Origin: Crenobacter caeni
Lineage (GTDB): Bacteria; Pseudomonadota; Gammaproteobacteria; Burkholderiales; Chromobacteriaceae
NCBI RefSeq assembly: GCF_010435965.1
Contig: NZ_JAAGAA010000004.1
Location: 1 to 64,000 of the forward strand
Length of the DNA stretch: 64,000 bases
Direction: 5' to 3'
Program-made: the position numbers and the translations under genes
Part shown: positions 4,938 through 35,804 of the stretch, piece by piece
Layout of the letters: each line of letters opens with the position of its first letter
How positions within the stretch are numbered: position 1 is the stretch's first letter
The notes under the pieces: generated by a model
The model's database searches: none
Told to the model about the DNA's origin: nothing
The model's input: the letters and a program-made list of their open reading frames with translations, nothing else

Positions 4938-4978
4938 GATTTCTCCTGAGTGTGGAAGGCCTGAGGCTTGTTATCGTT

Positions 4979-18748: not shown

Positions 18749-18766
18749 GCCCGGGCTTGCCCGATA

Positions 18767-18790: not shown

Positions 18791-18803
18791 TTGTTGGTGG
18801 GCG

Positions 18804-20594: not shown

Positions 20595-20598
20595 CGCA

Positions 20599-21513
20599 TC
20601 AGCCGTGTTCGGCGCGCCAGCGCGCGATGAGGGCTGGCAGTGCCGCGAGCGTCAAGCCGGTGTGGACACGAGGCGCATCAAGCGCCGCGCGGCTGCCCGC
20701 GCCGCCGACCCACAGCTCGCAGTTGCCGGGCAAGGCGGCGATCAGCGGGGGCAACTCGCGCTCGGGCGCGCCTGTGTAGGCGGCCGAGAACGACAGGCAC
20801 AGCACGTCGATGCGGTGCTCGGCGCAGGCGGCGGCCATCTCGGCGAAGGGCATCGACACGCCGAAGGGGACGATCTGGCAGCCTTGCAGCCGCAGCTGTG
20901 TCTCGGCGAGCATCAGCCCCAGCGCGTGTGCTTCGCCCGGTGCGGTAGTCAGCATTACCCTCGGCGGCGCGCTCCCTTCGGGCAAGAGCGCCATCGCTTC
21001 GCGCAGCACGCGGCCGACGTGCTCGCTATAGAGGTGCTCGTGGCGCACGCCCAGCAAGCCGCGCGCCCACGCGTCGCCGACCTGGTAGCCGGTATGCGGC
21101 AGGTAGTCGCCGGCGAAGCGCGCCAGACCCAGCTCGGCCAGGCGGCGGCGCAACAGCGCGCGCAAGGCTGGCGCGTCGTGCGCGGCGAGCACGGGCAAGA
21201 GCTCGGTCTCGTCGTTCTCCTGGATGCGCGGCGCGGGCAGCGTGTCCTCGACCAGCGCGTCGAGTTCGGCGGCGGTCAGGGCGACGATGCGGCCCGGGCG
21301 CAGGCCCAGGTCGAGTAGACGGCGGATCTGGCGCAGGCGTTCGACCTGCTCGGGCGGGTAGACGCGGTCGCCGTGCGCGTCGCGCAGCGGCGAGGGGAAG
21401 CCGTAACGGCGTTCCCACATGCGCAACAAGTCGCGCGGCACGCCGGTTTCGCGTTCGACTGCGGCGATCGGCAGCCCGTGCGGAGGGAGACTCTGGCTCG
21501 TTTGCGTATTCAT
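20599..21513 (-). CDS. MerR-type cobalamin-dependent photoreceptor regulator (CarH/LitR-like)
   Basis: 304 residues. The N-terminal MerR helix-turn-helix (about 14-80, with RMWERRYGFP) is followed by a helical cap and a B12-binding Rossmann domain (about 105-304). The CarH/LitR signature is exact: Trp149, nine residues, then Glu159-His160, plus E194-x-H196-x-x-G199, where His196 would be the lower cobalt ligand. Known family members bind DNA in the dark with adenosylcobalamin and release it on light. It is the last gene of the nine-gene operon, 10 bases after the NTF2-like gene, and probably represses its own operon. Confidence 0.9.
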   Translation of the reverse strand: MNTQTSQSLPPHGLPIAAVERETGVPRDLLRMWERRYGFPSPLRDAHGDRVYPPEQVERLRQIRRLLDLGLRPGRIVALTAAELDALVEDTLPAPRIQENDETELLPVLAAHDAPALRALLRRRLAELGLARFAGDYLPHTGYQVGDAWARGLLGVRHEHLYSEHVGRVLREAMALLPEGSAPPRVMLTTAPGEAHALGLMLAETQLRLQGCQIVPFGVSMPFAEMAAACAEHRIDVLCLSFSAAYTGAPERELPPLIAALPGNCELWVGGAGSRAALDAPRVHTGLTLAALPALIARWRAEHG

Positions 21514-21523
21514 TGGGCGCGGA

Positions 21524-21934
21524 TTATGCCATGCGCCGCTTGATCAGGCGCAGCAGGGAGCCGACCAGCGGCAGGGGGGCGAGCGCGTCGGCGCTGTCCC
21601 AGTAGTCTTGCTGGTGCGCGATCAGGCCGGCGTCGTCCATGTCCAGCACGCTTGCGCCGTCAAAGCCAAACGCTCGGCCGCGGTAGCGGTAGTCGAAACG
21701 CCACGCGACGAAGGCGCTGTCGCCCTCGGCGATCACGCGGTTGATGGTGAAGCGCGGTGTCTCCAGCGTGTCGAACATGCGCGCGTAGAGCACCTGAATC
21801 GCGTCGCGGCCGGTGAGCGCGTGCACCGGGTCGGCAAAGCGGGCGTTGGCCGCGTAAACCGTTTCGATGCGCGCGAGTGTCGAGAGCGTCAGGCCCGAGA
21901 ACCACGCGAGGTGCTGTTCAAGTGGTGTGTTCAT
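21524..21934 (-). CDS. NTF2/SnoaL-like protein
   Basis: 136-residue small protein of the nuclear-transport-factor-2-like fold, starting MNTPLEQHLAWFSGL. Typical features are YAANARFADPVHALTG near residues 27-42 and the conserved strand region AFVAWRFDYRYRG. The family includes isomerases, cyclases and binding proteins, so the reaction is unknown. It overlaps the SDR gene by ATGA. Similar SnoaL-like genes are found with cyclopropane-synthase and DUF1365 genes in other proteobacteria. Confidence 0.8.
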   Translation of the reverse strand: MNTPLEQHLAWFSGLTLSTLARIETVYAANARFADPVHALTGRDAIQVLYARMFDTLETPRFTINRVIAEGDSAFVAWRFDYRYRGRAFGFDGASVLDMDDAGLIAHQQDYWDSADALAPLPLVGSLLRLIKRRMA

Positions 21935-22704
21935 AGTCCGGTCGTCTTGTGCATCAGCCAGAACCAAGCGCGCCTGGGCAAGAGGGCGGCGAGTTTGAGC
22001 ACCGTGGTGAAGCGGCGCGGGAAGTGGATGTCGAAGGCGCCTTGCGCGAACCCTGCGACGATGGCGTCGGCGGCCTCCTCGGGCGAGATCAGCGCGGGCA
22101 TCGAAAAGTCGTTGCCGGCGGTTAGCCGGGTGCGCACGAAACCGGGGTTGATCACCCACACGCCGACGCCCAACGGCGCGAGGTCTAGGTAGAGCGTCTG
22201 CGCGAGGTGGTTGACGGCGGCCTTGGTCGCGCCGTACACGGTGGCCTTGGGCATGCCGCCGACGCCGGCGACGCTGCCGGTCAGCGCGATGCCGCCCTTG
22301 CCGCGTTGCCTGAAGATCGGCGCGCACGCGGCGACCAGGTAAAACGCCGCCATCAGGTTGACGTCGGTGAGCGCGCGCGCGGCCTCGGGCGTGACTTCCC
22401 AAGCGCGCAGCGGCCGGTAGTCGCCGGCGAGCAGCACCACCAGGTCGACGCCGCCCTGTGCGTCTAGCCGCGCTGCCACGTCTTGCCAGGCGGCGTCGTC
22501 GGTCGCGTCGAACGGCTCGCAGTGCGCTTGCCCCCCGCAGCGCGCCGCCACCGCCTGCAGCGCGTCCGCGTTGCGCCCGGACAGGGTGAGGCGCGCGCCA
22601 AGCTTGGCAAGCTTCACCGCCAGCGCTTCGCCGATGCCGTGCCCGGCGCCGACCAGCCACACATGCTTGCCCTGCCACTGCCTGATCGGCGTGTTGGCGC
22701 TCAT
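21931..22704 (-). CDS. Short-chain dehydrogenase/reductase
   Basis: 257-residue NAD(P)-dependent oxidoreductase. The cofactor loop is GAGHGIGEA near residues 18-26, and the catalytic YxxxK is YGATK near 159-163, after SVAGVGG with the catalytic Ser. A hydrophobic C-terminal stretch (residues about 225-257) could associate with membrane. The substrate is unknown; context suggests a lipid-derived alcohol or ketone. ATGA overlaps join it to both neighbours. Confidence 0.88.
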   Translation of the reverse strand: MSANTPIRQWQGKHVWLVGAGHGIGEALAVKLAKLGARLTLSGRNADALQAVAARCGGQAHCEPFDATDDAAWQDVAARLDAQGGVDLVVLLAGDYRPLRAWEVTPEAARALTDVNLMAAFYLVAACAPIFRQRGKGGIALTGSVAGVGGMPKATVYGATKAAVNHLAQTLYLDLAPLGVGVWVINPGFVRTRLTAGNDFSMPALISPEEAADAIVAGFAQGAFDIHFPRRFTTVLKLAALLPRRAWFWLMHKTTGL

Positions 22705-23246
22705 GGCGCGCGCCCCTGTTTTTGCAAGAGCAGGGTAATGTCGCCGACGCGGACGCCGAATTTCTTCATTTCCGAGCGGTTGATCAGGTTGTTGTCGTCG
22801 ACCAGATACATCCAGTCGTCGATGGTCAAATCGATTTCGCGGCCGTCGATGGGCACCTTCAGCGTGTACCCGAAGTTGAACGCGTAGCCCGCGCCGCGCC
22901 CTTGCGCTTCGCCGACCACGTCGTGCGCGCGGCCGGTATAGCTGCCGTTGGCCTCACGCGTCAGCGTCCACACCCTGCGCTGGCGCTCGCCGTCGTCGAA
23001 CACGAAGTGCTCGTCCAGCGTGCCGGTGCTGCCTGCCCAGCGCGCGTCGATGTCGACGACGAAGCGGCGCAACACCTTGCCAGAGCGGTCCTGCACCGTG
23101 CCCCAGCCCTTGAGCGGCCCGTCGAAGAAGCGTTCGAGCGCGAGGGCGGGTTTGCCGCCCTGATAGGTATCGACGCCGGGGGTCGAGCAGGCGGCGAGCA
23201 GCATGGCGAGGCAGGCGACGAAAGTTCGGGTCAGGGTGCGGGTCAT
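22701..23246 (-). CDS. DUF3833 lipoprotein
   Basis: 181 residues with a lipoprotein signal (MLLAAC, mature Cys near residue 20) and the DUF3833 core: YQGGKPALALERFFDGPLKG, then FVFDDGERQRRVWTL and DDWMYLVDDNNLINRSEM. I chose the ATG at 23246, which has GGAGG upstream and overlaps the MFS stop by ATGA. The function is unknown. The family recurs beside cyclopropane synthase and SDR genes, so it may act on or carry modified lipids in the envelope. Confidence 0.87.
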   Translation of the reverse strand: MTRTLTRTFVACLAMLLAACSTPGVDTYQGGKPALALERFFDGPLKGWGTVQDRSGKVLRRFVVDIDARWAGSTGTLDEHFVFDDGERQRRVWTLTREANGSYTGRAHDVVGEAQGRGAGYAFNFGYTLKVPIDGREIDLTIDDWMYLVDDNNLINRSEMKKFGVRVGDITLLLQKQGRAP

Positions 23247-24478
23247 GGTGCGTCCTCCAGAAGCGGGCGCACGCGTGCGAGCAGCGCCCAGGCAAACAGC
23301 TTGAACAGGCAAGGCAGGCCGGCGTACATCAGGGTGAGCGCGGCCAGCCCTTCATCGCCGCCGGGCACATAGCCCGCGGCCGCCGCGAGCGGCAGGGCGA
23401 CGCCGGCGCCCAGCGCCAGCGCGAGCTTGTTGACGAGGCTGACCCCGCCGAAATAGCTGCCGCCGTCTTCCTCCACGCCGTGGCCGATCACGTCGGCGAT
23501 CAGCGCGGTCGAATACGCGAGGTCGGCGCCCAGTGCCGCGCCGGTGGCGACGCACACCAGATAGAACCAGTAGGCGTTGGCAGGCGAGAGCCAGGGCACC
23601 AGCACGAAGCCGGCGAGCGCGAGCGCCATGCCGGCGTACCACGCGCGCACCCGGCCCAGCCTTCGGGCAAGCACAAGCCACGCCGGCAAGGACAGCAGCG
23701 CCGCGCCGAAGTAGGCGAGCAGCCAGGGGCCGATCAGGCCCGGCGCACCCAGCGCGTCGGCGGCGAAGAAGTTGAACAGCGTCGCCGGCAGCGCCATCGC
23801 CAAGGAGTTTACGAGCACTACGGCGAGCAGCGCGAGGTAGCGGCGGTCGGCCAGGACGCGGCGCCAGTTGCCGCGCGCGATGCGGGCAGGCGGTGCTGCC
23901 GGCGCACGCGTGAACAGCAGCAGGCTTGCGACGGTGAGTGCGGCGAACAGCGCAAAAAACAGCGCGAGCCCGTGCTGCTGGCCGAGCGCGTCGGAGAGCA
24001 GCGGCGGCAGCGCGGCGGCGAGCATCACGCCGACCACGCCGAGCGCTTCGCGGCTGGCGACCACGCGGCCGCGTTCGTCGACGTCCTGGCTTAGCGCCGC
24101 GCCGTAACGCAGCAGTGCGATGCCAAGCCAGCCGTGCGCGGTGAAGATGAGCGCGAGCGTCGCGCCCAGTTGCCAGGTGAGCGGCAAGCCTTGCACGGGC
24201 AGCAGCAAGAAGTAAAACGCGGCGGCGCCGACGACAGCGAGGGCGACGCTGAGTGAGCGCAGGACGCTTGGGCTGCAGTGGTCCTGCAGGTAGCCGATGA
24301 GCGGGTCCTGCGCGGTGTCGTACAGCCTAGCAAACAGCAGGATGGCACCGACCGTCGACAGCGGCAGGCCGTAGCCGGCGGTGTAAAGCGCGGGGGTGAG
24401 CACGTAGACGGGCAGCGCGACCATCGCCAGCGGCAGGGCGGGGCTGGCGGCCAGCCATAAGGCGCGCGTGCCGGGCAT
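23243..24478 (-). CDS. MFS transporter, GPH-like
   Basis: 411-residue carrier with about 12 membrane segments. Motifs such as RLYDTAQDPLIGYLQDH early in the protein resemble the glycoside-pentoside-hexuronide cation symporter group. Its place inside a lipid-modification operon suggests a lipid or lipid-precursor substrate rather than a sugar. A comparable MFS gene lies in the singlet-oxygen-induced operon of Rhodobacter, as I recall. It starts one base after the upstream gene ends. Confidence 0.87.
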   Translation of the reverse strand: MPGTRALWLAASPALPLAMVALPVYVLTPALYTAGYGLPLSTVGAILLFARLYDTAQDPLIGYLQDHCSPSVLRSLSVALAVVGAAAFYFLLLPVQGLPLTWQLGATLALIFTAHGWLGIALLRYGAALSQDVDERGRVVASREALGVVGVMLAAALPPLLSDALGQQHGLALFFALFAALTVASLLLFTRAPAAPPARIARGNWRRVLADRRYLALLAVVLVNSLAMALPATLFNFFAADALGAPGLIGPWLLAYFGAALLSLPAWLVLARRLGRVRAWYAGMALALAGFVLVPWLSPANAYWFYLVCVATGAALGADLAYSTALIADVIGHGVEEDGGSYFGGVSLVNKLALALGAGVALPLAAAAGYVPGGDEGLAALTLMYAGLPCLFKLFAWALLARVRPLLEDAP

Positions 24479-24479
24479 G

Positions 24480-25007
24480 CTAGCGGCCCTCGCCGATCAG
24501 CGCGCGGCGCAGCGCGGGCTCGCGCGTGGTCGGCGCAAGCCAGATGTCGAAGAAGCGCCGCGCGAACAGCGCGTCGGCTATGCGCCCCACCGGGCGGCCG
24601 TTGTGCCAGAAACTGGCGCCGCCGTCTGCCAGGCGTGCGCCGACGATCACGTCGCCCGCCGCCACATCCGGGAACACCCCGCGCAACACTTCGACGTAGC
24701 GCTCGATATCCGCTGGCGGCACGCCCTGACGCGCCATCTCGTCGCCGCTCGAGCGCGCGAGCGCCTCGCCTTCGAAGGCGCGCGCGTAGCGCAGCTCCAG
24801 CGCGTACGGCGCGCCGGCCTGCCACGGCGCACCGGCCGGCGTAAAGAGCGCCGCGTCGTACAGCTTGAGGCCGAACCAGCGCATGGTGCCGCGGCCGAGC
24901 GCCTCGAGGGCGGGGGTTTGCGCCAGCGCCGGCGGCAGTGCGTGGGCGAGCCCGGTCATCAGCGCAAGGCAGGCACTAAGGACGAACGAATTGAATTTGG
25001 CAGACAT
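24480..25007 (-). CDS. Chalcone-isomerase-like periplasmic protein
   Basis: 175 residues: a signal peptide (about 1-23, ending GLAHA) and a chalcone-isomerase-like domain with RWFGLKLYDAALFTPAG and LRYARAFEGEALA. Bacterial members of this fold bind fatty acids or haem and rarely isomerise chalcones. GGAG precedes the ATG at 25007, so the start lies 32 bases inside the upstream synthase gene. It probably binds or modifies a fatty acid in the periplasm; that is inference. Confidence 0.8.
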   Translation of the reverse strand: MSAKFNSFVLSACLALMTGLAHALPPALAQTPALEALGRGTMRWFGLKLYDAALFTPAGAPWQAGAPYALELRYARAFEGEALARSSGDEMARQGVPPADIERYVEVLRGVFPDVAAGDVIVGARLADGGASFWHNGRPVGRIADALFARRFFDIWLAPTTREPALRRALIGEGR

Positions 25008-26190
25008 CGGTGCGCTCCGTTTCAAAGCCGGCGATGCAGTAGTCGAGGTAAAAGCGCCAGATCCGCTGGAAGGGCGCGTCAAAACGCGCGTCCAGCATCG
25101 GCAGCGCGGCCGAAAAGCGGTGGCGCCACGCGCGCAGCGTCAACGCGTAGTCGCGGCCGAAGCGGAACACGTCGTCCATGCTAAGGCCGGCGGCGCGGCT
25201 TTCCTCTTCCAGCCTTTGCAGGCTCGGCAGCATGCCGCCGGGGAAGATGTACTGCTGGATGAAGTCGGTGCCGCGCCGGTAGCGCGCGAAGTGCGCGTCA
25301 TCGATGGTGATCACCTGCACCAGCGCCTTGCCGCCGGGTTTGAGCCTGTCGCGCAGCGTCGCGAAGTAGGTCGGCCACCAGCGCTCGCCGACCGCCTCGA
25401 GCATCTCGATCGACACGATATGGTCGAACTGTCCCTTGATGTCGCGGTAGTCGGTCAGCGTGAGCGACGCTTGCCCTGCGAGGCCCGCGCGTGCGAGCCG
25501 TGCCTGTGCGTAGGCGAGCTGTTCGGTGGAGAGGGTGACGCCGGTCACGTGCACGCCGCGGGTGCGGATCGCGTATTCGGCAAAGCCGCCCCAGCCGCAG
25601 CCGATCTCGAGCAGGCGCTCGCCGCGCGCGGGGTTCAGCCTTTGCAGGATGCGTTCGTACTTGGCGGTTTGCGCGTCTTCCAGCGTGCGCGTGGCGTCTC
25701 CGTCAAACAGCGCGGCGGAGTAGGTCATGCCCTTGTCCAGCCACAGCCGGTAAAAGTCGTTGCCCAGGTCGTAGTGGGCCTGGATGTTGCGGCGGCTGCC
25801 TGCGCGGGTATTGGCGTTGAAGAGGTGGCGCAGCCAGTAAAGCAGGGTGCCGGCGACGCTGCCGTGCACCGCGCGCTCGAGCGCCGCCTCGTTGGCGAGC
25901 GCGAGCCGGATCAGCGCGACCGCGTCCTGCGTATGCGCACGCTCGTCGCGCAGCGCCTCGGCCAGCGCGATGTCGCCGCCCTTGGCGATCCTGGCGAGCA
26001 CCTCCCAGTCCCGGATCGCAAGGTGGGCGCTCGGCCCGGCGGCCTGGCCGTGGAAGAGTCGCGCGCTGCCGTCCGGGCATTCGAGCAGCAGGCTGCCCGC
26101 CTGCAGCTTTTCCAGCGCGCTGATCAGCGTGCGCGCCAACAGCGGCGGGCGCGGCGCCATCAGCGTGCGGGTGGGGCTGTGTCCGTTCAT
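24976..26190 (-). CDS. Cyclopropane-fatty-acyl-phospholipid synthase family methyltransferase
   Basis: 404-residue SAM-dependent enzyme of the Cfa family. The SAM loop is LEIGCGWGGFAEYA near residue 195; GNDFYRLWLDKGMTYSAALF and SIEMLEAVGERWW are the usual CFA-synthase signatures. It would add a methylene or methyl group to double bonds of membrane phospholipid acyl chains. Relatives in such operons make methylated or furan fatty acids in alphaproteobacteria. It overlaps the DUF1365 gene by ATGA. Confidence 0.92.
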   Translation of the reverse strand: MNGHSPTRTLMAPRPPLLARTLISALEKLQAGSLLLECPDGSARLFHGQAAGPSAHLAIRDWEVLARIAKGGDIALAEALRDERAHTQDAVALIRLALANEAALERAVHGSVAGTLLYWLRHLFNANTRAGSRRNIQAHYDLGNDFYRLWLDKGMTYSAALFDGDATRTLEDAQTAKYERILQRLNPARGERLLEIGCGWGGFAEYAIRTRGVHVTGVTLSTEQLAYAQARLARAGLAGQASLTLTDYRDIKGQFDHIVSIEMLEAVGERWWPTYFATLRDRLKPGGKALVQVITIDDAHFARYRRGTDFIQQYIFPGGMLPSLQRLEEESRAAGLSMDDVFRFGRDYALTLRAWRHRFSAALPMLDARFDAPFQRIWRFYLDYCIAGFETERTDVCQIQFVRP

Positions 26191-26924
26191 GTCGTGCTCC
26201 TGTCGTCGAATCCCTGTGTGCGGGGGCGGCCGTCACGGCCAAAGAAGGGTGCGCCGCGGCGCCAGAGCCGCCACGCCTGCAAGTGGATGTGCAGCCACAC
26301 GCCGAAGCCCAATAGCCAGTGGCGCGCACCGCTCGCGAGCCAGTCGGTGCTGCGTGCGCGGGCGCTTAGGCCGTCGAGCCCGGCGGTGAAAACGCGGGTG
26401 CCGTCCGGGTCCAGGTAATCGATGCGCACGGCAAAACGATCCTTGTCCGCGACGTCGAACGCGAAGCGGTAGCCGCCCTCGACCTTGAAGAACGGCGAGA
26501 CGTGCAGCGCCTTGGCGATCTCGGTGTCGCTCGCAGGCGGGACGAAGTAGTCGTGCCGCTCGCCGAAGGTATTGCGCACCTCGACCCAGAAACCGAGCAG
26601 CGCGCCTTGCTCGCCGCGCACCACGTAGAAACTCGCCGGGTTGAACACCCTGCCCAGTACGCAGGGCAGGGTGTGCAGTTCGGCCGACAGCGCGCCGGTT
26701 ACGCCGTGCTGGGCGAGCCTCGCTTGAAGCCACGGCAGCAGCGCGCTGCCGTCTTCGGCGCCGTGGCGCTTGCGCTGCCAGGCGACCATAGGCGCCAGGT
26801 GCACGCTGGGCCGGTCGCACTCGGGCAGTGGCAGCGCCAGCCACGCGTGCGGGTAGGCGAAGCGGTGTTCGACGGGCGCGTGCCGCGCGTGCCACACGCG
26901 GCCGACGAAGCGGCGCGCGCTCAT
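26187..26924 (-). CDS. DUF1365-domain protein
   Basis: 245 residues with the DUF1365 hallmarks RVWHARHAPVEHRFAYPHAW at the start, FNPASFY (near 104), EVRNTFGERHDY and KALHVSPFFKVEGGY. The ATG at 26924 overlaps the FAD gene stop by ATGA; the longer upstream frame is a shadow. The biochemical role is unknown, but DUF1365 almost always sits between an FAD amine-oxidase-like gene and a Cfa-like gene, so it likely works with them on acyl chains. Confidence 0.9.
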   Translation of the reverse strand: MSARRFVGRVWHARHAPVEHRFAYPHAWLALPLPECDRPSVHLAPMVAWQRKRHGAEDGSALLPWLQARLAQHGVTGALSAELHTLPCVLGRVFNPASFYVVRGEQGALLGFWVEVRNTFGERHDYFVPPASDTEIAKALHVSPFFKVEGGYRFAFDVADKDRFAVRIDYLDPDGTRVFTAGLDGLSARARSTDWLASGARHWLLGFGVWLHIHLQAWRLWRRGAPFFGRDGRPRTQGFDDRSTT

Positions 26925-28234
26925 GCCGGGCACGCCTGGGCCGGCGAGGGCGCTGGCCGCGCAACGGGGGCGACGCCATGTGCCCACGGCACCGTGGCGC
27001 CCAGCGCAAGGGCGACGCGCATGCCGGCCTTTAGGCCGTCCTCGTGGAAGCCGTAGCCGCACCACGCGCCGGCGAGCCATACGCCGCCTTGTCCCTGCAC
27101 GCCGTCGAGCGCGTTTTGCGCCGCGATGGCGGCGGCGTCGAGCCGCGGGTGCGCGTAGTCAAAGCGCGCGATCAACTGGTCGGGTTCCTGCGCAGGGTTG
27201 AGGCTGACGATGACCGGCGCCTTGAACGGCAAGGGCTGCAGGCGGTTGATCAGGTAGTGCACCGATACCGGCGCCTCGCCCGCCTCGCCCGCTTCGGCAC
27301 GGTAGTTCCACGCCGACCACAGCGCGCGGCGCCGGGGCAGCACGCGCGCGTCGCTGTGCAGGTAGGCGCGGTTGGGCGTGTAGCCGATCTGCCCCAGCAG
27401 CGTGCGCGCCGCGTGGTGGCACTCGCCCAGCATGGCGCGGGCTTCGTCACTATGGCAGGCGAGCACCACCTGGTCGTGCCGGCTGACCCCGTGCGCGTGA
27501 TGCAGCTCGACGCCACCGCCGGCGCTCTCGCGGATGGCGTGCACCGGGCAGCCGTAGCGCACGTCGTTAAGGGTTTCCAGCATCGTGCGCACGTACTCGC
27601 GCGAGCCGCCGACAACGGTGCGCCACTGCGGACGGTCGGTGACCTGCATCAACCCGTGGTTGGCGCAGAACTCGAAGAAGGTGGCCGCCGGGAAGTCCAG
27701 CATGTCGCGGGTGGAGGTCGACCAGATCGCCGCGCCCATCGGCAGCAGGTACCAGCGCATGAGTGCCTCGCCAAAGCCGTGCCGCGCGAGCGCTCCGCCC
27801 AGCGTGTCGCCGCGGACGCGAGCTTCGGTAAGGATCGCGGGGGCGAGCCTGTGCAGGCGGTGGATGTCGGCGAGCATGCGCCAGAAGCGGGGGCGCACCA
27901 GGTTGCGTTTCTGCCCGAACAGCGTGGCGACGCTGCTGCCGGCCCACTCCAGATCATCGGCCTCGCTCGCAACCGAAAAGGTCATCTCGCTGTCGCAGGT
28001 CCTGACGCCGAGTGTTTCAAAGAGGGCGATCAGGTTGGGGTAGGTGCGTGCGTTGTGCACCAGAAAACCGGTGTCGACCGGGTGGCGCACGCCTTCGAGT
28101 TCGACGTCGACGGTATGGCTGTGCCCGCCCGCGCGGTGCGCCTTCTCGTACACGGTGACCCGGTGGCCGCTGCGCGCGAGCAACCACGCAGAGGAGAGGC
28201 CGGCGATGCCGGTGCCGACGACGGCGATGTTCAT
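26921..28234 (-). CDS. FAD-dependent amine-oxidase-like oxidoreductase
   Basis: 437-residue flavoprotein starting MNIAVVGTGIAGLSSAWLLA, a Rossmann loop (GTGIAG) for FAD, followed by VTVYEKAHRAGGHSHT and a C-terminal flavin motif (VWLAGAWCGYGFHEDGLKAG). The start at 28234 has AGGAG 8 bases upstream; the GTG three codons earlier overlaps that site. It is the first gene of the operon. It probably oxidises or desaturates fatty-acyl chains together with the Cfa-like and DUF1365 proteins. Confidence 0.9.
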   Translation of the reverse strand: MNIAVVGTGIAGLSSAWLLARSGHRVTVYEKAHRAGGHSHTVDVELEGVRHPVDTGFLVHNARTYPNLIALFETLGVRTCDSEMTFSVASEADDLEWAGSSVATLFGQKRNLVRPRFWRMLADIHRLHRLAPAILTEARVRGDTLGGALARHGFGEALMRWYLLPMGAAIWSTSTRDMLDFPAATFFEFCANHGLMQVTDRPQWRTVVGGSREYVRTMLETLNDVRYGCPVHAIRESAGGGVELHHAHGVSRHDQVVLACHSDEARAMLGECHHAARTLLGQIGYTPNRAYLHSDARVLPRRRALWSAWNYRAEAGEAGEAPVSVHYLINRLQPLPFKAPVIVSLNPAQEPDQLIARFDYAHPRLDAAAIAAQNALDGVQGQGGVWLAGAWCGYGFHEDGLKAGMRVALALGATVPWAHGVAPVARPAPSPAQACPA

Positions 28235-28268
28235 GACGTGCACTCCTGGGCAAGGTGATGTCCGTCGA

Positions 28269-28297
28269 ACTATTGTTTATCGCAGTGAATCTGTCAA
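28269..28297 (-). promoter_or_regulatory. Promoter of the photoreceptor/lipid operon
   Basis: On the minus strand TTGACA (28297-28292), 17 bases, then AATAGT (28274-28269), about 30 bases before the first codon. The -35 box is an exact consensus and the spacing ideal. The region is markedly AT-rich compared with its surroundings. Confidence 0.7.
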
Positions 28298-28300
28298 CTA

Positions 28301-28315
28301 TTTGTACAGTACAAA
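28301..28315. promoter_or_regulatory. TTTGTACAGTACAAA palindrome, candidate CarH/LitR operator
   Basis: A perfect 15-base palindrome ends 3 bases from the -35 box of the operon promoter. TGTACA-type half-sites are what I recall for LitR/CarH-family regulators in other bacteria. Position and symmetry fit a MerR-type dimer or tetramer site controlling the operon that encodes the regulator. Confidence 0.6.
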
Positions 28316-28393
28316 ACATGAACGAAATGGCGGCCTTTCCGGGACGGTCCGGCCGAAGGGGCGGGGTGCAGGCGGGCGGATGCCCGCCCGGGG

Positions 28394-29581
28394 TCAAGCG
28401 GCGGCGTGCGGGTGGTGCGCGGGGAGGAGGGTGGGCAGATTGACGATGCGGCAGCAGGCATCCATGCCGCGCGGGCAGTGCGCTTCGCTGCGGGCGACCG
28501 GGTGGGCGGGGGTGGTGAACCAGACGCCGACTTCGACGTCGAGCGCGTCTTCCAGCGCGTGGCGGTCGGCCTTGAGCGCGGGGTCGACCCACAGCGGGAA
28601 GCGCAGCCACGCAGGCTCGCTGCCGTCGATGGCGTCGAGGTGCCCGATGCCGCGCGCCCCGGCCCAATCTTGCCAGTACGCGGCCTGCGCGCGGCGGCGG
28701 GCCAGCACCGCGTCCAGCCGGTCCAGTTGCGCGTCGGCGATGCGGGCAATGGCCGAGGGCATGCGCTGGCCGTAGCGCGGCGGCACCGAAATGCCGAACT
28801 CTTCCGGCCACATCTGCGGCAGCACCCGCTCGCCCCACAGCGCGCGGGCGCGTTCGGCGCCGGCCGCGTCACCGCTTGCGCGCACCCAGTAGTCGTGCAT
28901 CACGCTGATCAGTTGCGCGTCGATCTCGTCCGCATCCGGCAGCGGCGCCGCCTCGGCGAGCGCCGACAGCCGCTCGGCCGCTTCCGCGTCGTTGGCGAGC
29001 GCGACGCCGCCGTGGATGGTGGTCAGCACCTTGCTGCGCTCGAAGCTGTATACCGCGACGTCGCCGTACACGCCAAGCGGCAGGCCGCGGTGGCGCGCAC
29101 CCAGCGCGTGCGCGCAGTCTTCGATCACCTTCAGGTTGTGCTCGTGCGCAAGTTGCAGGATCGCCTCGAAGTCGCGGCCGACGAGGCCGAAGCTGTGCTG
29201 GATCATGACCGCGCGGGTGGCCGGCGTGATCGCCTGGCGCACCGCATCGACGTCTAGGCCGAGGCCGGCGTGCTCGATGTCCGCGTATTGCGGCTGTGCG
29301 CCGGCGAAGGCAAGCGCGTTGAGCACGCACTGGCAGGTGAACGCCGGCACGACAACGCCGGCGTTGTCCCCCAGGTCCAGCGCGCGGACAGCCATCGCCA
29401 GCGCGGCACGCCCGCCCATGAAGGCGCGGGCGTGGCCGTGGCCGACCCACGTCTCGAAACGCCGCTCGAAGGCGCGTGTCGCGTGGGTGTCCATCGCCTC
29501 GGGCAGCCGCTCGCGCAGCGCGCGCGCGAGCTCCAGTTCGCGCGCGGTGAGGGTGGTACTGAGCAGGGGGGCTAGTGGCAT
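28394..29581 (-). CDS. DegT/DnrJ/EryC1-family aminotransferase
   Basis: 395-residue PLP enzyme. The PLP lysine is Lys184 in FERSKVLTTIHGG, with Asp155 in VIEDCAHALG holding the pyridine nitrogen. The family usually aminates keto-sugars for polysaccharides or antibiotics, and no sugar genes lie nearby. Here it is the last of a seven-gene minus-strand operon, 11 bases after an SDR, so a ketone made by that SDR could be its substrate. A weak hairpin (28371-28388) without a T-run follows. Confidence 0.87.
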   Translation of the reverse strand: MPLAPLLSTTLTARELELARALRERLPEAMDTHATRAFERRFETWVGHGHARAFMGGRAALAMAVRALDLGDNAGVVVPAFTCQCVLNALAFAGAQPQYADIEHAGLGLDVDAVRQAITPATRAVMIQHSFGLVGRDFEAILQLAHEHNLKVIEDCAHALGARHRGLPLGVYGDVAVYSFERSKVLTTIHGGVALANDAEAAERLSALAEAAPLPDADEIDAQLISVMHDYWVRASGDAAGAERARALWGERVLPQMWPEEFGISVPPRYGQRMPSAIARIADAQLDRLDAVLARRRAQAAYWQDWAGARGIGHLDAIDGSEPAWLRFPLWVDPALKADRHALEDALDVEVGVWFTTPAHPVARSEAHCPRGMDACCRIVNLPTLLPAHHPHAAA

Positions 29582-29592
29582 CGCTGTGCTCC

Positions 29593-30345
29593 TTACTTGC
29601 CGCCGTCGACCGAAAGCACCTGGCCGCTGATCCAGCCGGCCTCGCTGCTGGCGAAAAACAGCACCGCGTGCGCGATATCGGCAGGCTCACCCGGCCGGCG
29701 CAGCGCGATGCCGTCCATCAGTCGCGCCTGGCCGGTTTCGCCCATCGCCTGCCACTGGCGCTCGGTGCTCGGGTTGGAGCGAATGAAGCCCGGCGCGACG
29801 CTGTTGACGGTGATGCCGAAGGGGCCAAGCTCGTGGCCGAGCTGGCGCGCGAGCGAAATCTCGGCCGCCTTGGCCGCTGCGTACGCCTGGATGCCGGTCA
29901 GGCTGACGCCCAGGCCCGCGCCGCTGGAAATCAGCACGATGCGCCCGCGCCCCTTCGCCTTCATGCCCGGCGCCACCGCCTGCGCGCACCAGAACGCGCC
30001 GTCGGTGTTGACCGCGAAGATGCGCCGCCAGTCGGCCTCGGTGATGGTTTCCAGCGGGCGGCCGGCCTGGCCGCACACGCCGCCCGCGCTGTGCACCAGC
30101 ACGTCGACGGCGCCGGTGGCGGCGATCAGCGCGTGCACGGCGGCGCGGTCAGTCACGTCGAGCCGCCGCGCCTCGCACTGCCCGCCGCAAGCCGCGACGG
30201 TTTCGGCGAGCGTGTCGCCGTCGATGTCGGCGGCGATCACCCGGGCGCCGGCTGCGGCAAAGCGGCGGCAGATCTCGCGGCCGATGCCTTGCGCGGCGCC
30301 GGTGACGAGCACGGTCTGTCCCGTGTAGTCGTAGGCAAGGTTCAT
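29593..30345 (-). CDS. Short-chain dehydrogenase/reductase (FabG-like)
   Basis: 250-residue NAD(P)-dependent oxidoreductase. The cofactor loop TGAAQGIG is near residues 15-22, the catalytic Ser lies in LISSGAGLGVS and Tyr/Lys in YAAAK near 155-159. The C-terminus GWISGQVLSVDGGK is typical of the classical group. It overlaps the ketopantoate-reductase-like gene by ATGA. The substrate is unknown; probably a hydroxy acid or alcohol in the same pathway. Confidence 0.9.
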   Translation of the reverse strand: MNLAYDYTGQTVLVTGAAQGIGREICRRFAAAGARVIAADIDGDTLAETVAACGGQCEARRLDVTDRAAVHALIAATGAVDVLVHSAGGVCGQAGRPLETITEADWRRIFAVNTDGAFWCAQAVAPGMKAKGRGRIVLISSGAGLGVSLTGIQAYAAAKAAEISLARQLGHELGPFGITVNSVAPGFIRSNPSTERQWQAMGETGQARLMDGIALRRPGEPADIAHAVLFFASSEAGWISGQVLSVDGGK

Positions 30346-31379
30346 GCTGTCGCTCCTTGCGGCATGGCCGCGCGCACCGATTCGAGCAGCTCGAGCCCGA
30401 GCGGCACACCGCCTTCGGCCGCGTGTACCGCGCGTACCAAGGCGTCGGTCAGCGGGGTCGGCACGCCGTGTTCACGGCCGATGTGCGCGATCGGCGCGAT
30501 GATCTCGTCGACCTCGGTCTTGCGCTTGTGTACCGACAGGTCGCGCCAGATGCCAGCGTGCTTCTTGGCCGAGCGCCGGTTATGCGCAGCCAGCCGGTCG
30601 AGCGACGCGTACGCGCCGCCCAGGGGCGCATCCGGTGCGAAGGCGGCCGGCTCGAAGCCGTCGAAACCCTCGAGCGCGACGCCGTGCGCGCGCGCCACCA
30701 GACACACCTCGCGCGCGAGCGCGACCAGCAGCGGGCGGTAGCGGTCGTTTTCCAGCACGCCGGCGATGCCCTCGTCAGTCAGCGCGGTGGCGAACAGCAG
30801 GCTGCCGTAGACGAGCTTGCCCCACAGGTAGCCGTGGATATTGGTGGTGAGTAGCGCGTCGGGGTTAAAGAGGGAGAACAGCGCGTGGATGTCGCGCGCA
30901 CGCTCGGTGAGGCCGCCGTCGATCTCGCCGAGTACGGTCGCGCCCCAGCCGCCGAACATCACCTCGCCCGGCGCCATCAGGTCGGCGCCGAAGTTGACGA
31001 AGCAGCCGAAGGTGCGGGGCGCACCGAGTTCCTCGGCGATCACCGCCTCGTTCAGCCCGTTCTGCACGCTGACCACTACGCCGTCGTCGGTGAGATGGGC
31101 GGCGAGCATGCGGCAGGCGGCGCGGGTGTGCAGCGCCTTGGTGGCGAGCAGGATCAGCGGGTAGCGCCCGGCAAGCGTCTCCGGTGTGCACGCCGGCACC
31201 CGGAAGCGGCCCTCGAGGATGGGGCCGGTCAGCGTGAGGCCGTTTGCGTTGAGCGCGGCGACGTGGGCGGCGTTGTTGTCGACGAGCAGCACTTCGCGGC
31301 CGGCGCGCACGAAATGGGCGGCGAGTGTCGCGCCCATCGCGCCGGCGCCCCAGATCAGGATCGGTTCGCCGGCTGTCAT
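30342..31379 (-). CDS. Ketopantoate-reductase-family protein (ApbA/PanE)
   Basis: 345 residues. The N-terminal NADPH loop is WGAGAMGATLA (about 10-20); the second domain carries GYLWGKLVYGSLLFA, where the Lys corresponds to the catalytic PanE lysine. It may reduce 2-dehydropantoate or, more likely in this operon, interconvert another 2-oxo/2-hydroxy acid. I chose the ATG at 31379 because it overlaps the creatininase-family stop by ATGA. It is somewhat longer than typical PanE (about 300). Confidence 0.87.
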   Translation of the reverse strand: MTAGEPILIWGAGAMGATLAAHFVRAGREVLLVDNNAAHVAALNANGLTLTGPILEGRFRVPACTPETLAGRYPLILLATKALHTRAACRMLAAHLTDDGVVVSVQNGLNEAVIAEELGAPRTFGCFVNFGADLMAPGEVMFGGWGATVLGEIDGGLTERARDIHALFSLFNPDALLTTNIHGYLWGKLVYGSLLFATALTDEGIAGVLENDRYRPLLVALAREVCLVARAHGVALEGFDGFEPAAFAPDAPLGGAYASLDRLAAHNRRSAKKHAGIWRDLSVHKRKTEVDEIIAPIAHIGREHGVPTPLTDALVRAVHAAEGGVPLGLELLESVRAAMPQGATA

Positions 31380-32077
31380 CGCCACGGCCCCTCGATCAGC
31401 GCGCGCGTCTCCTCGACGGCGATCTGCCACATCCGCTCGGTGTCGCCCTCCGGCCGGGTGTAGGCGCCGCCGAAGTTGCCGTCGCCGATATAGTCGCGCA
31501 CAAGTTCAGGGTTCAGCACCGCGTAGCGCGCGAAGTCGATCAGCGGCTTGGCACCTGCAGGCGGGGTCGCGCCGGCGACGCGGGTGAACGGCAGGCTCTC
31601 CATCCACGACGCGTGCGAGCTGTCGGCGTCGCACGCCTTGACGAAGGCAAGCGTGCGCGGCGCGTTCCACCAGTTGTGGAACTTCACCTGCACGTGCGGG
31701 TTTTCGGCCATCCACTCGGTGGCGAGCGCCGAGGCCGGCGCGTTGCCGCCGTGGCCGTTGACGATCACGATGCACCTGAAGCCCTGTCGGGCCAGGCTGT
31801 CCAACAGGTCGCGCACCAGCGCGAGGTAGGTGCCGGTTTTCAGCGTGACGGTGCCGGGGAAGGCGGAAAAATACGGCGCGAGGCCGTAGCTTTGCACCGG
31901 GAACACCGGCACGCCCAAGGGTTCGGCCGCGTCCAGCGCGACCTGCTCGGCGAGCAGCGCGTCGGTGGCGAGGCTCAGGTAGGCGTGCTGCTCGACGCTG
32001 CCCAAAGGCAGCACGCAGCGGTCGTCGTGCTGCAGGTAGCTTTCCACCTGCATCCAGTTCATGTCGGCAATCTTCAT
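31376..32077 (-). CDS. Creatininase-family amidohydrolase
   Basis: 233-residue metal-dependent amide hydrolase. The metal-binding signatures LPLGSVEQHAYLSLATDALL (near 24-43) and VNGHGGNAPAS (about 107-117) are clear. The family covers creatinine amidohydrolase, deformylases of pterin/flavin synthesis and the mycofactocin peptidase MftE, so the name does not fix the substrate. It lies 10 bases after the isoaspartyl peptidase gene, giving two different amide hydrolases side by side. Confidence 0.9.
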   Translation of the reverse strand: MKIADMNWMQVESYLQHDDRCVLPLGSVEQHAYLSLATDALLAEQVALDAAEPLGVPVFPVQSYGLAPYFSAFPGTVTLKTGTYLALVRDLLDSLARQGFRCIVIVNGHGGNAPASALATEWMAENPHVQVKFHNWWNAPRTLAFVKACDADSSHASWMESLPFTRVAGATPPAGAKPLIDFARYAVLNPELVRDYIGDGNFGGAYTRPEGDTERMWQIAVEETRALIEGPWR

Positions 32078-32087
32078 GGTGTCGTCC

Positions 32088-33035
32088 TCAGTCGCGGTAG
32101 ATGGCGACGTCGATCTCGCCGCCGGCGACCACCTGGCCGCGGTACATGCCTTCGGTGTTGAAGGGCAGGCTGATCCGGCCCTGGGCGTCGACCACGATCA
32201 GGCCGCCCTGGCCGCCCATTGCGCCCAGTTCCGCCATCACGGCGGTGGCGGCGGTGGCCGCGTCCTCGTGCAGGAAACGCATGCGCGCGGTGATTTCGTG
32301 CGCGGCGCACGCGCGCAGGAACACTTCGCCGGTGCCGGTGGCGGAGATGGCGACCTCGGTGTCGGCCCAGGTGCCGGCGCCGATCACCGGGCTGTCGCCG
32401 ACGCGGCCCCAGCGCTTGTTGGTCAGTCCGCCGGTGGAGGTGGCGGCGGCAAGCCCGCCGTGCCTGTCCAGCGCGACGGCGCCGACGGTGCCGAACTTCT
32501 TGTCGGCGAAGGCGAGCTTGTGCGCGCCGTCGTGGTCGAGCACCGCGGCGCTGCTGTCGCGCACCGCCAAAAGCTGCCGGTAGCGCGCTTCGGTGTGGAA
32601 GTAGTCGGCCGGCGCGGTCTCCAGGCCCACGCTTTCGGCAAACGCGCGCGCACCGTCGCCGGCGAGCAGCACGTGGTTGGATTTTTCCATCACCGCGCGC
32701 GCCGCGAGCACGGGGTTCCTGATGCCAGTGAGCTGGCAGACGGCGCCGGCGTCGCGGCCCGCGCCGACCATTACCGCCGCGTCCATCTCGTTGCGGCCCT
32801 CGTGGGTGAACACCGCGCCGCGCCCGGCGTTAAAGAGCGGGCTGTCTTCCATCACCGCGACTGCCGCGCACACCGCGTCGAGCGCGCTCTGGCCGGCGGC
32901 GAGGCAGGCTTGCCCGGCGATCAGGGCGTCGGTCAGCGCGGCGCGGTACTCGGCTTCCTGCGCCGGGGTCATGGTGCTGCGGGTGAGGGTGCCGGCGCCG
33001 CCGTGGATGGCCAGCGCGAATTCCGGTCTTTGCAT
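32088..33035 (-). CDS. Isoaspartyl peptidase / plant-type L-asparaginase
   Basis: 315-residue N-terminal-nucleophile hydrolase. Autocleavage before Thr183 (in FGTVGAVALD) would give the alpha and beta chains, close to Thr179 in E. coli IaaA. IHGGAG at the start and AATSTGG after the nucleophile are family signatures. It releases amino acids from beta-aspartyl peptides or asparagine. The ATG at 33035 is preferred because the longer frame enters the intercistronic hairpin. It belongs to an uptake and degradation operon. Confidence 0.92.
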   Translation of the reverse strand: MQRPEFALAIHGGAGTLTRSTMTPAQEAEYRAALTDALIAGQACLAAGQSALDAVCAAVAVMEDSPLFNAGRGAVFTHEGRNEMDAAVMVGAGRDAGAVCQLTGIRNPVLAARAVMEKSNHVLLAGDGARAFAESVGLETAPADYFHTEARYRQLLAVRDSSAAVLDHDGAHKLAFADKKFGTVGAVALDRHGGLAAATSTGGLTNKRWGRVGDSPVIGAGTWADTEVAISATGTGEVFLRACAAHEITARMRFLHEDAATAATAVMAELGAMGGQGGLIVVDAQGRISLPFNTEGMYRGQVVAGGEIDVAIYRD

Positions 33036-33064
33036 GTCTCTGTCCTTGTTATCTTTTTGCTGGA

Positions 33065-33092
33065 AGGCCCGCCGGCGCAAACCGGCGGGCCT
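33065..33092 (-). other. Intercistronic hairpin after the symporter gene
   Basis: A perfect 11-bp stem (33065-33075 with 33082-33092) and a 6-base loop in the 63-base gap between the symporter and peptidase genes. There is no proper T-run, so it may stabilise mRNA or cause partial termination and lower enzyme expression relative to the transporter. Confidence 0.55.
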
Positions 33093-33098
33093 GGTCAC

Positions 33099-34586
33099 TC
33101 AGGCGAAGGCGAAATGGCGGCCAAGCACCTCGCGCTTGACCGGCTGGGTGAACAGGCTGACCACAACCATCAGCACCATGGTCACGCTCCAGCTGACGAT
33201 CAGCGGGTCAAAGCCCAGCGTCAGGCCCTGGCCCCACAGCGCCAGCGACACGTACAGCGCGCCACCGACGATGGCGGCCGCGAAGGCGGCGCTGGTGGTC
33301 GCGCGCTTCCAGTACATGCCGAGGATCACCGGTGCGACCCAGATGCCGAGGCCGCCGAAGGAGAAGCGGATCAGCTCGAAGATCGACGCCGGCTTGGTGA
33401 TGCCCACCACGATGCCGGCGACGCCGATGATCACGGTCACATAGCGCGACAGGCGGAAGATCTCCTCGTCGCTGGCCTTGGGGTTGAAGCCGTGCTGGTA
33501 GATGTCGCGGGTGATGCCGCCGGTGGCGACCACCAGCAGCGCGTCGATGGTCGACATGCCGGCCGAGACGATGCCGGCGATCAGGATGGCGGCGAGATAC
33601 GGGTTGAGGTTCTGCTGCAACAGCATCGGCACGATGAAGTCGGTTTCCTTGCCGGTAAGGCCCGGCAGGCTGACGATGCCCATCACGCCCGACCACTCGA
33701 TCATGGTCGCCGAGATCAGCATGCCCAGCGTGCCCAGGATCACCGCCTTGAACATGGTGCGGTAGTCGCGCATCGCGTAGAACTTGGTGAACAGCGTCGG
33801 CTGGCCGATGGTGAAGAAGCTCCACATCACGATCATCGAGAAGTACGCGCTCCACGGGTACTTGGCGGCGGCACCCGGGTGCGACAGGAACTGTTCACCC
33901 TTGGCCAAGAGTTGCGCGTTGATGTTCTCTAGTCCGCCGCCGGCGTCGACCGATACGATGAAGGTCACGGTCGCGGTGATCACCATCAGGCTGCCTTGCA
34001 GCACGTCGGTCAGCATCGCGCCCTTCATGCCGCCGGCCATGCAATAGAGGATCACGATGATGCCCATGCCGACCACGCCGACCCACTCGGGCAGGCCGGT
34101 GAAGGTGTGGACGATCACGCCGGCGCCGACCGTCTGCGCGCCGATCATGCCGATCAGGAAGATCACCATCATGGTCGCGTGCAGGATGCCCAGCTTGCGC
34201 GAGTCGTAGCGGCTGACCAGATAGTCAGTCATGGTCAGGAGGCCGTGGGTGTGCGAGAGCTGCATCAGCTTGCGGCCGACCAGGAGCGCCGGGATGATCA
34301 TCGAGAAGGCAAGGCCCGGCACCGAAATGGTCAGGCCGGCGTAGCCGTTGGCGTAGGCCACCGCCGGCACGCCCATGAAGGTGCTCATCGAGTACTGCGT
34401 CGCGAAGTAGGCGATGCCGCTGACCACCGCGCCGGCCTTGCCGCCGAGCACGAAGAAGTCCTTGAGGTTCTTGGTGTTGCGCGCGGCGTACCAGCCGATG
34501 CCGCCGATCACCAGGAAGTACAGCGCCAGCGTCACGAAGAAGGGGACGGGCGTCGGTGCGATCAGTTGCGAGACGGGCGAACTCAT
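33099..34586 (-). CDS. Sodium:solute symporter (SSS family)
   Basis: 495-residue inner-membrane carrier with about 13 hydrophobic segments. The start (YFLVIGGIGWYAARNTKNLKDFFVLGGK) and SAGMSTIDALLVVATGGITRDIY near residue 340 are SSS signatures, the latter close to the sodium-binding helix. It resembles the pantothenate/PanF branch more than the proline branch, but the substrate is not fixed. It overlaps the small membrane protein gene by ATGA and leads a set of catabolic enzymes. Confidence 0.92.
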   Translation of the reverse strand: MSSPVSQLIAPTPVPFFVTLALYFLVIGGIGWYAARNTKNLKDFFVLGGKAGAVVSGIAYFATQYSMSTFMGVPAVAYANGYAGLTISVPGLAFSMIIPALLVGRKLMQLSHTHGLLTMTDYLVSRYDSRKLGILHATMMVIFLIGMIGAQTVGAGVIVHTFTGLPEWVGVVGMGIIVILYCMAGGMKGAMLTDVLQGSLMVITATVTFIVSVDAGGGLENINAQLLAKGEQFLSHPGAAAKYPWSAYFSMIVMWSFFTIGQPTLFTKFYAMRDYRTMFKAVILGTLGMLISATMIEWSGVMGIVSLPGLTGKETDFIVPMLLQQNLNPYLAAILIAGIVSAGMSTIDALLVVATGGITRDIYQHGFNPKASDEEIFRLSRYVTVIIGVAGIVVGITKPASIFELIRFSFGGLGIWVAPVILGMYWKRATTSAAFAAAIVGGALYVSLALWGQGLTLGFDPLIVSWSVTMVLMVVVSLFTQPVKREVLGRHFAFA

Positions 34587-34834
34587 GCTTCACCTCCTTC
34601 GCTGTCCAAGCTCTGGTACTCGGGGCGCGCCAGGCACTGGCGCGCGAAGAGGGCGATTGCGACCAGCACGGCGAAGCCGTGGCCGATCCAGCCCCACAGG
34701 AACATCGGTACGCCCAGCGGACCGGGCAGGTAGCTCTCGTTGTAATACCAGGGCAGCGGCAACATGATCAGCCCATAGAGGGCGAAAAAGATGGCGGCCC
34801 ATCGCCGCTCGAAGGCATTGCTCAGACAGTGCAT
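34583..34834 (-). CDS. Small membrane partner of the symporter
   Basis: 83 residues with two membrane segments (about 11-30 and 42-63) and the sequence LPWYYNESYLPGPLGVPMFLWGW between them. Small proteins of the DUF3311/DUF997 kind are regularly encoded just before SSS carriers and may act as accessory subunits. Its overlap with the symporter gene supports this. It is the first gene of the seven-gene operon. Confidence 0.75.
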   Translation of the reverse strand: MHCLSNAFERRWAAIFFALYGLIMLPLPWYYNESYLPGPLGVPMFLWGWIGHGFAVLVAIALFARQCLARPEYQSLDSEGGEA

Positions 34835-35214
34835 GGGTAGGGTCCTTTGTAGGGTGTTGTCGCCTTGAATATCGGCAACTACTTATATAAAAAGCATTTT
34901 TAATGCCTTTTAATTACTTCACGGGATGGGTATTGCACGCATTGATTGATATCAAGCGCTTTCGTTATTGGTGGACGAGCATCCGTGCGTAATCCGCAAA
35001 CGTGGATTGCGGTAGCGGGCCTGTGACGAACGTCTTGTGTGCGGATATGACGTCTTCGTGGCATGCCCCGGATCGGCTGCTATAACGCAAGCACTCACCG
35101 GTGACGCGTGGCAGCGCTTGTCGCAGGTCTGTGCGGCCTTGCTGCGCGGCGCCGGTACCGGTCTGGATTCAACTGGCCGCAGCAAGGCGCTGCGGTGGCA
35201 CACTGGAGGTCGAG
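34835..35214. promoter_or_regulatory. Divergent regulatory region between symporter operon and dps
   Basis: 380 bases without a gene, with a distinctly AT-rich part at 34880-34920. TTATATAAG on the minus strand near 34882-34890 could be a -10 region for the symporter operon. An imperfect inverted repeat, AAAAGCATT with AATGCCTTTT, lies around 34890-34911. On the plus strand GTGGCA (35058-35063), 17 bases, TATAAC (35081-35086) is a plausible dps promoter. The FNR-type box is listed separately. Confidence 0.45.
34942..34955. promoter_or_regulatory. FNR/ANR-type box
   Basis: TTGATTGATATCAA is an exact match to the FNR/ANR consensus TTGAT-N4-ATCAA. Its centre is about 71.5 bases upstream of the start site expected from the TATATA element of the symporter operon, a spacing seen at class I activated promoters. 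It could equally act on dps. Confidence 0.6.
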
Positions 35215-35745: not shown

Positions 35746-35767
35746 GGCTTTTGGTCTTCCGCCAGAC

Positions 35768-35795
35768 AACGCCCGCGTCTTCTGACGCGGGCGTT
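35768..35795 (+). terminator. Terminator after dps
   Basis: A perfect 12-bp stem (35768-35779 with 35784-35795) and a TTCT loop; the T-run overlaps the stem end (TTTTT). Confidence 0.92.
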
Positions 35796-35804
35796 TTTGC
35801 GTGC

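Follow-up and report, generated by a model that had tools for sequence, protein, structure and literature searches.

A conserved palindrome at the promoter of a furan-fatty-acid-type gene cluster in Crenobacter caeni, predicted as the operator of a LitR/CarH-type regulator

The window, by which we mean the whole stretch of DNA analysed (64,000 nucleotides, positions 1 to 64,000 of contig NZ_JAAGAA010000004.1 of Crenobacter caeni, assembly GCF_010435965.1), carries a minus-strand run of genes that begins with an FAD amine-oxidase-like flavoprotein, possibly of the UfaD type (26921-28234; PF01593). Its start is most likely ATG 28234 and not GTG 28243, because AGGAG lies 8 nt upstream of the former. 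It is followed by a UfaO-type DUF1365 protein (PF07103; 26187-27080 as the reading frame was called, with the true start probably nearer 26920), a cyclopropane-synthase/UfaM-like methyltransferase (24976-26190; PF02353, under the NCBIfam cut-offs), a chalcone-isomerase-like protein (24480-25082; PF16036), an MFS_2 transporter (23243-24478; PF13347), a DUF3833 protein (22701-23312; PF12915), a short-chain dehydrogenase (21931-22704; PF00106) and a SnoaL-like protein (21524-21934; PF12680). The last gene of the operon (20599-21513) encodes a LitR/CarH-type regulator in which MerR DNA-binding and cobalamin-binding domains were recognised through Pfam, motifs and a profile search. Besides, a gene for a ferric-reductase-like membrane flavoprotein (19206-20594) is convergent with litR and ends 4 bases from the litR end. 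A report on Rhodobacter (PMC7380195) describes UfaO as containing DUF1365 and UfaM, UfaD and UfaO as making methylated furan fatty acid. With its UfaD/UfaO/UfaM-like members, the window operon would be of the furan-fatty-acid type with a lipid product, and operons of this type plausibly protect the cell from light-generated singlet oxygen.

The 150-base gap upstream of this gene run holds a palindrome and a promoter. The original prediction had described a perfect 15-base palindrome three bases from a TTGACA, with 17-base spacing from there to AATAGT, and this arrangement is present on the minus strand, where TTTGTACTGTACAAA (28301-28315; TTTGTACAGTACAAA in plus-strand letters) is followed by TAG, TTGACA (28297-28292), 17 bases and AATAGT (28274-28269). 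A simple promoter scan of 20000-36000 returned this promoter as its sole promoter-like match, with 1.0 expected by chance. Among the ten in-family relatives that have the operator, the -10 box at the same spacing reads GATAAA or GATAAC in seven and AATAGT in one, and two have no clear -10. The upstream arm of the palindrome is an inverted half-site, TTTGTAC (28309-28315), which is among the best-conserved positions of the aligned sites and reads TTTGTCC in most loci where litR is divergent from the cluster. Next to it, TGTACA (28303-28308) matches the TnnACA of the published CarH rule, in which repeats of nnnnTnnACAn follow each other at 11 bp and one of them includes the -35 element in Thermus (PMC9304148). 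TTGACA (28292-28297) comes exactly 11 bp after this first direct repeat, so that the window has CarH-type TnnACA repeats in an 11-bp step, one of them overlapping a promoter element. A third direct repeat was considered and rejected, as the hexamer in its place is ACTGCG and does not match; the window thus has two full repeats and not the three or more in tandem of Thermus CarH. Because the -35 hexamer is itself a half-site in phase, the predicted operator reaches beyond the palindrome, which is only its upstream part, a point that the original prediction had overlooked.

The regulator to which the original prediction had pointed, the protein of 20599-21513, does have the Wx9EH and ExHxxG motifs of CarH. 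W149x9E159H160 and E194xH196xxG199 are invariant in 11 orthologues and both motifs occur in all 80 LitR loci surveyed below, and the best solved relatives of a profile built from the 11 orthologues are Thermus CarH structures (3whp, 5c8d; E ~6e-37) over nearly the whole length. The MerR domain (PF13411) has the RxWERRY recognition helix in the form LRMWERRY; agreement of the 80 loci on this peptide is not independent evidence, LRMWERRY and PIAAVERE having been the seeds with which the loci were fetched. Whether base 5 of the site (A or C) covaries with the residue that precedes WERRY was also looked at and is uninformative, because the loci were selected by that very peptide. Of the B12 motif D/ExHx2G/Px41SxT/Vx22-27GG, the elements E194xH196xxG199, S241 and G270G271 are present and SxS (S243) replaces SxT/V; a loosened pattern permitting S at this last position matches 80/80 loci. 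The Pfam B12-binding score is 22.1, below the cut-off of 32.1, and the NCBIfam CarH equivalog cut-off is not reached (120.2 vs 400 bits). By these sequence features LitR is a diverged CarH relative with the key AdoCbl residues and not the named equivalog of CarH. The LitR of Crenobacter intestini is 91% identical to it. A gene of the cobalamin-adenosyltransferase family Cob_adeno_trans (PF01923) is present in all 13 in-family genomes with LitR, the own genome included, and an adenosyltransferase of the CobA type (PF02572) was not found in the own genome.

Taken together with the site, these features suggest a dark repressor. The operator would consist of the inverted half-site TTTGTAC abutting the direct half-site TGTACA, their centres being ~5 bp apart, with the -35 box as a second direct half-site 11 bp later. 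In the dark, an AdoCbl-loaded LitR oligomer would bind here, cover the -35 box and exclude sigma-70 RNA polymerase, so that the operon would be off. Light would cleave AdoCbl and release LitR, and the operon would then be transcribed, litR included; expression of litR would reset repression, and darkness would restore it. The proposal of the original prediction that the regulator blocks the promoter is favoured by the 11-bp TnnACA repeats, which take in the -35 box, and a repressor is preferred to a MerR-style activator because the site includes the -35 box of a promoter with the optimal 17-base spacer. Activation by LitR after the manner of classical MerR proteins, or action in both ways, is nevertheless an alternative to be weighed, as the DNA-binding domain is of the MerR type and the palindrome lies just upstream of the -35 box, where activators can also sit. 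Classical MerR activation works on a spacer of 19-20 bp with the dyad inside it, and the activator untwists this long spacer. Here the spacer is 17 bp and the site lies upstream of -35, with a half-site coinciding with the -35 box, which suits occlusion. PmlR2 of Pseudomonas mendocina, moreover, is described as essentially a repressor (PMC9758184), and we consider activation by LitR unlikely.

The palindrome could not be accepted on its symmetry. The window contains 38 perfect palindromes whose arms are 7 bases or longer, and 20 dinucleotide shuffles averaged 29.6, so palindromicity alone, which the original prediction had not put to this comparison, is not significant and was rejected as evidence; AT-rich ones (at least 70% A+T) are rarer, with 1 in the window vs 0.1 in the shuffles. 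The beyond-chance status of the putative operator palindrome rests on its conservation. The longest palindrome in the window, a perfect 26-base one elsewhere (AAAATGCCCGCCTAGGCGGGCATTTT; 18766-18791), resembles a two-way terminator. A motif scan of the own genome (3.40 Mb), which had been proposed with the original prediction, found the 15-mer to be unique up to one mismatch, the next best two sites having 2 mismatches. With up to 3 mismatches there were 18 matches vs 15 for the reversed control pattern, by which the matches with 2-3 mismatches are at chance level. The palindrome followed by TNNACA occurs once at 0 mismatches, and its sole 1-mismatch match is the same site on the other strand. 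By both scans the own genome has no strong target other than the operon. Genes near three of the weaker sites (2-3 mismatches) include UDG, SSB and a NERD/helicase protein, and near a NERD/helicase gene two degenerate GTAC-rich palindromes stand in tandem (L106, G000:C9:23267-23296).

Conservation was examined in 61 genomes, namely 13 in-family genomes with LitR (LitR+, a relative of the regulator at E 1e-15 or better, found in 13/37 in-family genomes), 24 in-family genomes without it (LitR-) and 24 order-level genomes. The 15-mer TTTGTAYNRTACAAA with at most one mismatch gave 27 sites vs 10 for the reversed control in the LitR+ genomes and 13 vs 16 in the LitR- genomes, and its exact form occurs somewhere in the genome in 9/13 and 3/24, respectively. 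The 24-base pattern TTTGTNYNRNACAAANNNTNNACA, again with at most one mismatch, was present in 11/13 LitR+, 6/24 LitR- and 1/24 order-level genomes, with matches against reversed control of 19 vs 4, 6 vs 1 and 2 vs 7 (27 vs 12 over all 61), and was exact in 8/13 LitR+ and 2/24 LitR- genomes (G032, G035). It was not found in G015, which has LitR. Before the orthologous operon, the operator stands in 11 of the 12 in-family genomes that have both an orthologue of the first gene and a LitR/CarH-type gene. Of 38 first-gene loci found, 30 were examined, and the 15-mer lies within 300 bp upstream of the first gene in 11/16 loci of LitR+ genomes and in 0/14 of LitR- genomes. The five LitR+ loci without it are that of G014, where litR and the cluster are at separate places in the genome and no site precedes the cluster, and those of four order-level genomes with litR divergent near the cluster. 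Among these order-level genomes, G046 carries a site near litR that has one mismatch and lies 1,471 bases upstream of its first gene, the only site of G038 within 1,500 bp of the first gene has 2 mismatches, and in G037 and G048 everything within that distance differs from the 15-mer by at least four. G006 (C2) and G007 (C5) also hold exact 15-mers with no recognised target nearby.

A wider survey covered 80 LitR loci of 333 candidates, metagenome-assembled relatives included, in 67 of which the first gene of the cluster was within reach of litR. The promoter stretch was defined as the 500 bp preceding the first gene; for divergent loci it was everything between that gene and litR (up to 2,500 bp). 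In these clusters litR is either last, as in the window, or divergent from the cluster, and in both gene orders the 15-mer (at most one mismatch) was found in the cluster promoter, in 63 of the 67 evaluable loci; the 17/80 loci without a cluster-promoter site comprise 4 evaluable misses and 13 without a first gene in reach. The earlier motif scan had been trained on 14 sites, and of the first 13 loci 8 were training genomes and 5 close relatives, so the figures that leave out these 13 are the ones to trust. Without them, 49/54 loci had the 15-mer in the promoter stretch, and there were 88 matches in 42,129 bases of promoter stretch vs 4 in 918,238 bases elsewhere. The 24-base pattern with at most one mismatch was present in 51/80 real loci and in none of ten dinucleotide shuffles of all 80. 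The suggestion of the original prediction that a MerR/CarH-type protein binds here is favoured by this comparison, in which the predicted site tracks the LitR gene cluster and its promoter.

The same data bear on the possibility that the palindrome belongs to some other regulator, such as an Fnr/Crp-like or redox one, LitR being merely encoded in the operon. The exact 15-mers in three of the LitR- family genomes speak for such an owner, as does G032, in which an exact palindrome with TTGACA (L132, G032:C1:1459497-1459520) precedes a gene that Pfam assigns as thioredoxin/redoxin-like and no LitR passed the search. The site, however, follows litR through the two gene orders, none of the 14 LitR- loci has it upstream of the first gene, the 15-mer exceeds its control in the LitR+ but not in the LitR- genomes, and the 11-bp phasing is that of CarH TnnACA repeats. 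Apart from these, a 15-mer at the start of the ferrochelatase gene is found in 4/13 LitR+ vs 0/15 LitR- genomes. We therefore give another owner of the palindrome little probability next to a LitR operator.

To compare the architecture of the predicted LitR operators, sites chosen on the 15-mer alone were deduplicated by removing those that differed by at most 8 of 75 bases, which reduced 63 to 51. TnnACA stands at +18 in 26/51 of them and at +29 in 19/31 divergent ones, and at any other offset from 13 to 64 in at most 2 sites. Where a divergent locus had several 15-mers, the one with the fewest mismatches, and then the first, was taken, which is sometimes not the litR-adjacent one and lowers the counts at +18 and +29. 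With T as the central base, repeat 1 itself stands at +7, which makes both steps 11. The +18 repeat TTGACA forms the -35 box in the window, in its nearest relatives and in 4/7 named Vogesella loci, and the other three Vogesella (aquatica, urethralis and oryzae) have TAAACA or TGTACA at +18. In-family sites with TTGACN continue with 17 bases and then GATAAA, GATAAC or AATAGT. Most divergent loci (Zoogloea, Azonexus, Dechloromonas and relatives) have three repeats, with TAGACA at +18 and the -35 box as the +29 repeat. The tail therefore varies by lineage, with none, one or two further repeats, and where it ends in TTGACA the last repeat is the -35 box. Co-directional sites of the Moraxellaceae type have the palindrome and show TnnACA at +18 in 0/10 deduplicated cases. 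Because they keep the palindrome without this repeat, the inverted anchor is the shared core of the predicted operators and the repeat tail a feature of betaproteobacterial loci. Two Moraxellaceae cluster promoters (L175, L186) carry two palindromes ~55 bp apart (near 4970 and ~50 bases on) instead of a repeat tail. That the conservation reflects only a strong promoter with an AT-rich upstream element is highly improbable. TTGACA with a 17-bp spacer is indeed a promoter feature, and RNA polymerase can profit from AT-rich DNA upstream. However, the palindrome is kept at exact phase, as is the middle repeat of divergent loci with -35 at +29 (TAGACA at +18), and neither has a promoter role; several Vogesella-type sites (TATACA/TGTACA/TAAACA) keep TnnACA without TTGACA.

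We thus read the site as the probable operator of the LitR/CarH-type regulator of 20599-21513, with AdoCbl-LitR repressing its own furan-fatty-acid-type operon in the dark and light releasing it, and put the probability of this reading at roughly 0.8. It draws on sequence, conservation, phasing, co-occurrence with litR and the key residues of the protein; from the family we infer LitR binding, AdoCbl dependence, dark repression and the response to light, and a lipid product is presumed. Against the operator reading stand the two full TnnACA repeats of the window, where Thermus CarH has three, and an inverted half-site that CarH operators need not have. The absent tail of the Moraxellaceae-type sites, the LitR+ genomes in which the operator was not found before a cluster or near litR (G014, G015, G037, G048) or has 2 mismatches (G038), the 24-base matches in six LitR- family members, the 17/80 loci lacking a cluster-promoter site, the SxS ending of the B12 motif and the low NCBIfam CarH score also count against it. 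If correct, the reading pins the action of a probable B12-based light sensor to an exactly predicted 24-base site, and it would join light sensing to lipid genes of the furan-fatty-acid type rather than to carotenoids. The related operators, with their lineage-dependent tails, offer a ready-made series in which to study DNA reading by CarH-like proteins and the degree to which green/blue-light switches might be made compact.

Besides the lipid cluster, other candidate targets appeared in related genomes. In the four LitR+ genomes with the ferrochelatase site (L266, L274, L275, L262) the palindrome ends 2 bases before the ATG and has no direct-repeat tail, and at the same place in G021 and G029 it is decayed (2-3 mismatches); the ferrochelatase-start palindrome reads as a minimal form of the predicted site. 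A G006 site that continues with TTGACG, 17 bases and TACAGT precedes a glutathione peroxidase gene and then folE2, away from the lipid cluster, and in L208 the 15-mer precedes gpx, folE2 and then the lipid cluster. Photolyase, folE and ufaM of Pseudomonas putida are light-inducible through LitR (PMC9758184). A site adjoins a photolyase reading frame in G025; it came to light in pattern searches, its position being slightly beyond the stretch retrieved for that gene. The 24-base pattern (up to 2 mismatches) was absent from 15 photolyase stretches of LitR+ genomes, and the photolyase stretch examined in the own genome (L231) had no site. The 24-base operator also precedes genes that Pfam identifies as PAS-domain chemoreceptors (MCP) in G007 and G016, a near-identical site with similar downstream sequence precedes a putative gene of this kind in G029, and a palindrome without tail precedes a PAS-MCP gene near litR in G014 (the loci L091:2078, L096:1983, L102:2011 and L092:5944 cover G007, G016, G029 and G014). 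An energy-taxis receptor may thus be under the control of light. Pfam gave no match on L100 or on the frame called at L102.

Among the open-access literature matches listed, none describes this operator or reports LitR from these genera, and an earlier description may exist. ChrR is an anti-sigma factor. The furan fatty acid operon RSP1091-1087 of Rhodobacter sphaeroides resembles the window operon in that the DUF1365 protein UfaO there shares an operon with the desaturase UfaD; the methylase UfaM is required as well, and the product rises in cells without chrR (PMC7380195), whereas the cluster described here carries its own LitR gene and site. Class II LitR proteins (PplR1 of P. putida, PmlR2 of P. 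mendocina) are comparable in the TGTACA hexamer, a site overlapping the -35 element, repression and a light-inducible regulon of ufaM, folE and photolyase; the site given for them in PMC9758184 is T(G/A)TACA-N12-TGTA(C/T)A, and this N12 spacing was rejected for the window, where inspection by eye of 28285-28326 showed no second hexamer 18 bp to either side of TGTACA.

With CarH of Thermus thermophilus and Bacillus megaterium (class I LitR), the window LitR shares the MerR and cobalamin domains, Wx9EH and ExHxxG, and with the Thermus CarH operator the site shares the 11-bp TnnACA steps and one repeat with the -35 element (PMC9304148). Unlike in those systems, the inverted half-site here abuts the first direct repeat, the repeats are two in the window and three in most divergent loci with no tail in the Moraxellaceae type, and the predicted target is a lipid-type operon and not carotenoid genes. 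The operator of CarA/CarH in Myxococcus xanthus (Pcrt/PB) is similar in that a perfect inverted repeat precedes the -35 and further repeats overlap it, TTGACA lying within a direct one (PMC9304148). It extends over ~55 bp with five repeats or pseudorepeats, in contrast to 24 bp here (35 bp in divergent loci), and its inverted repeat degenerates across Cystobacterineae, whereas that of the present sites is among their best-conserved parts. A hybrid operator may be tentatively proposed for the LitR of furan-fatty-acid-type clusters, with a chance that we place somewhat below even, in which a 15-bp inverted anchor able to stand alone (ferrochelatase, Moraxellaceae) would be joined, in betaproteobacterial loci, to a tail of one or two further direct repeats in 11-bp steps, the last of them being the -35 box. 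If true, a B12 light sensor would act on membrane-lipid chemistry and not on carotenoids. The geometry of oligomer and DNA would then be unlike both that of a MerR dimer on its dyad and that of the head-to-tail CarH tetramer.
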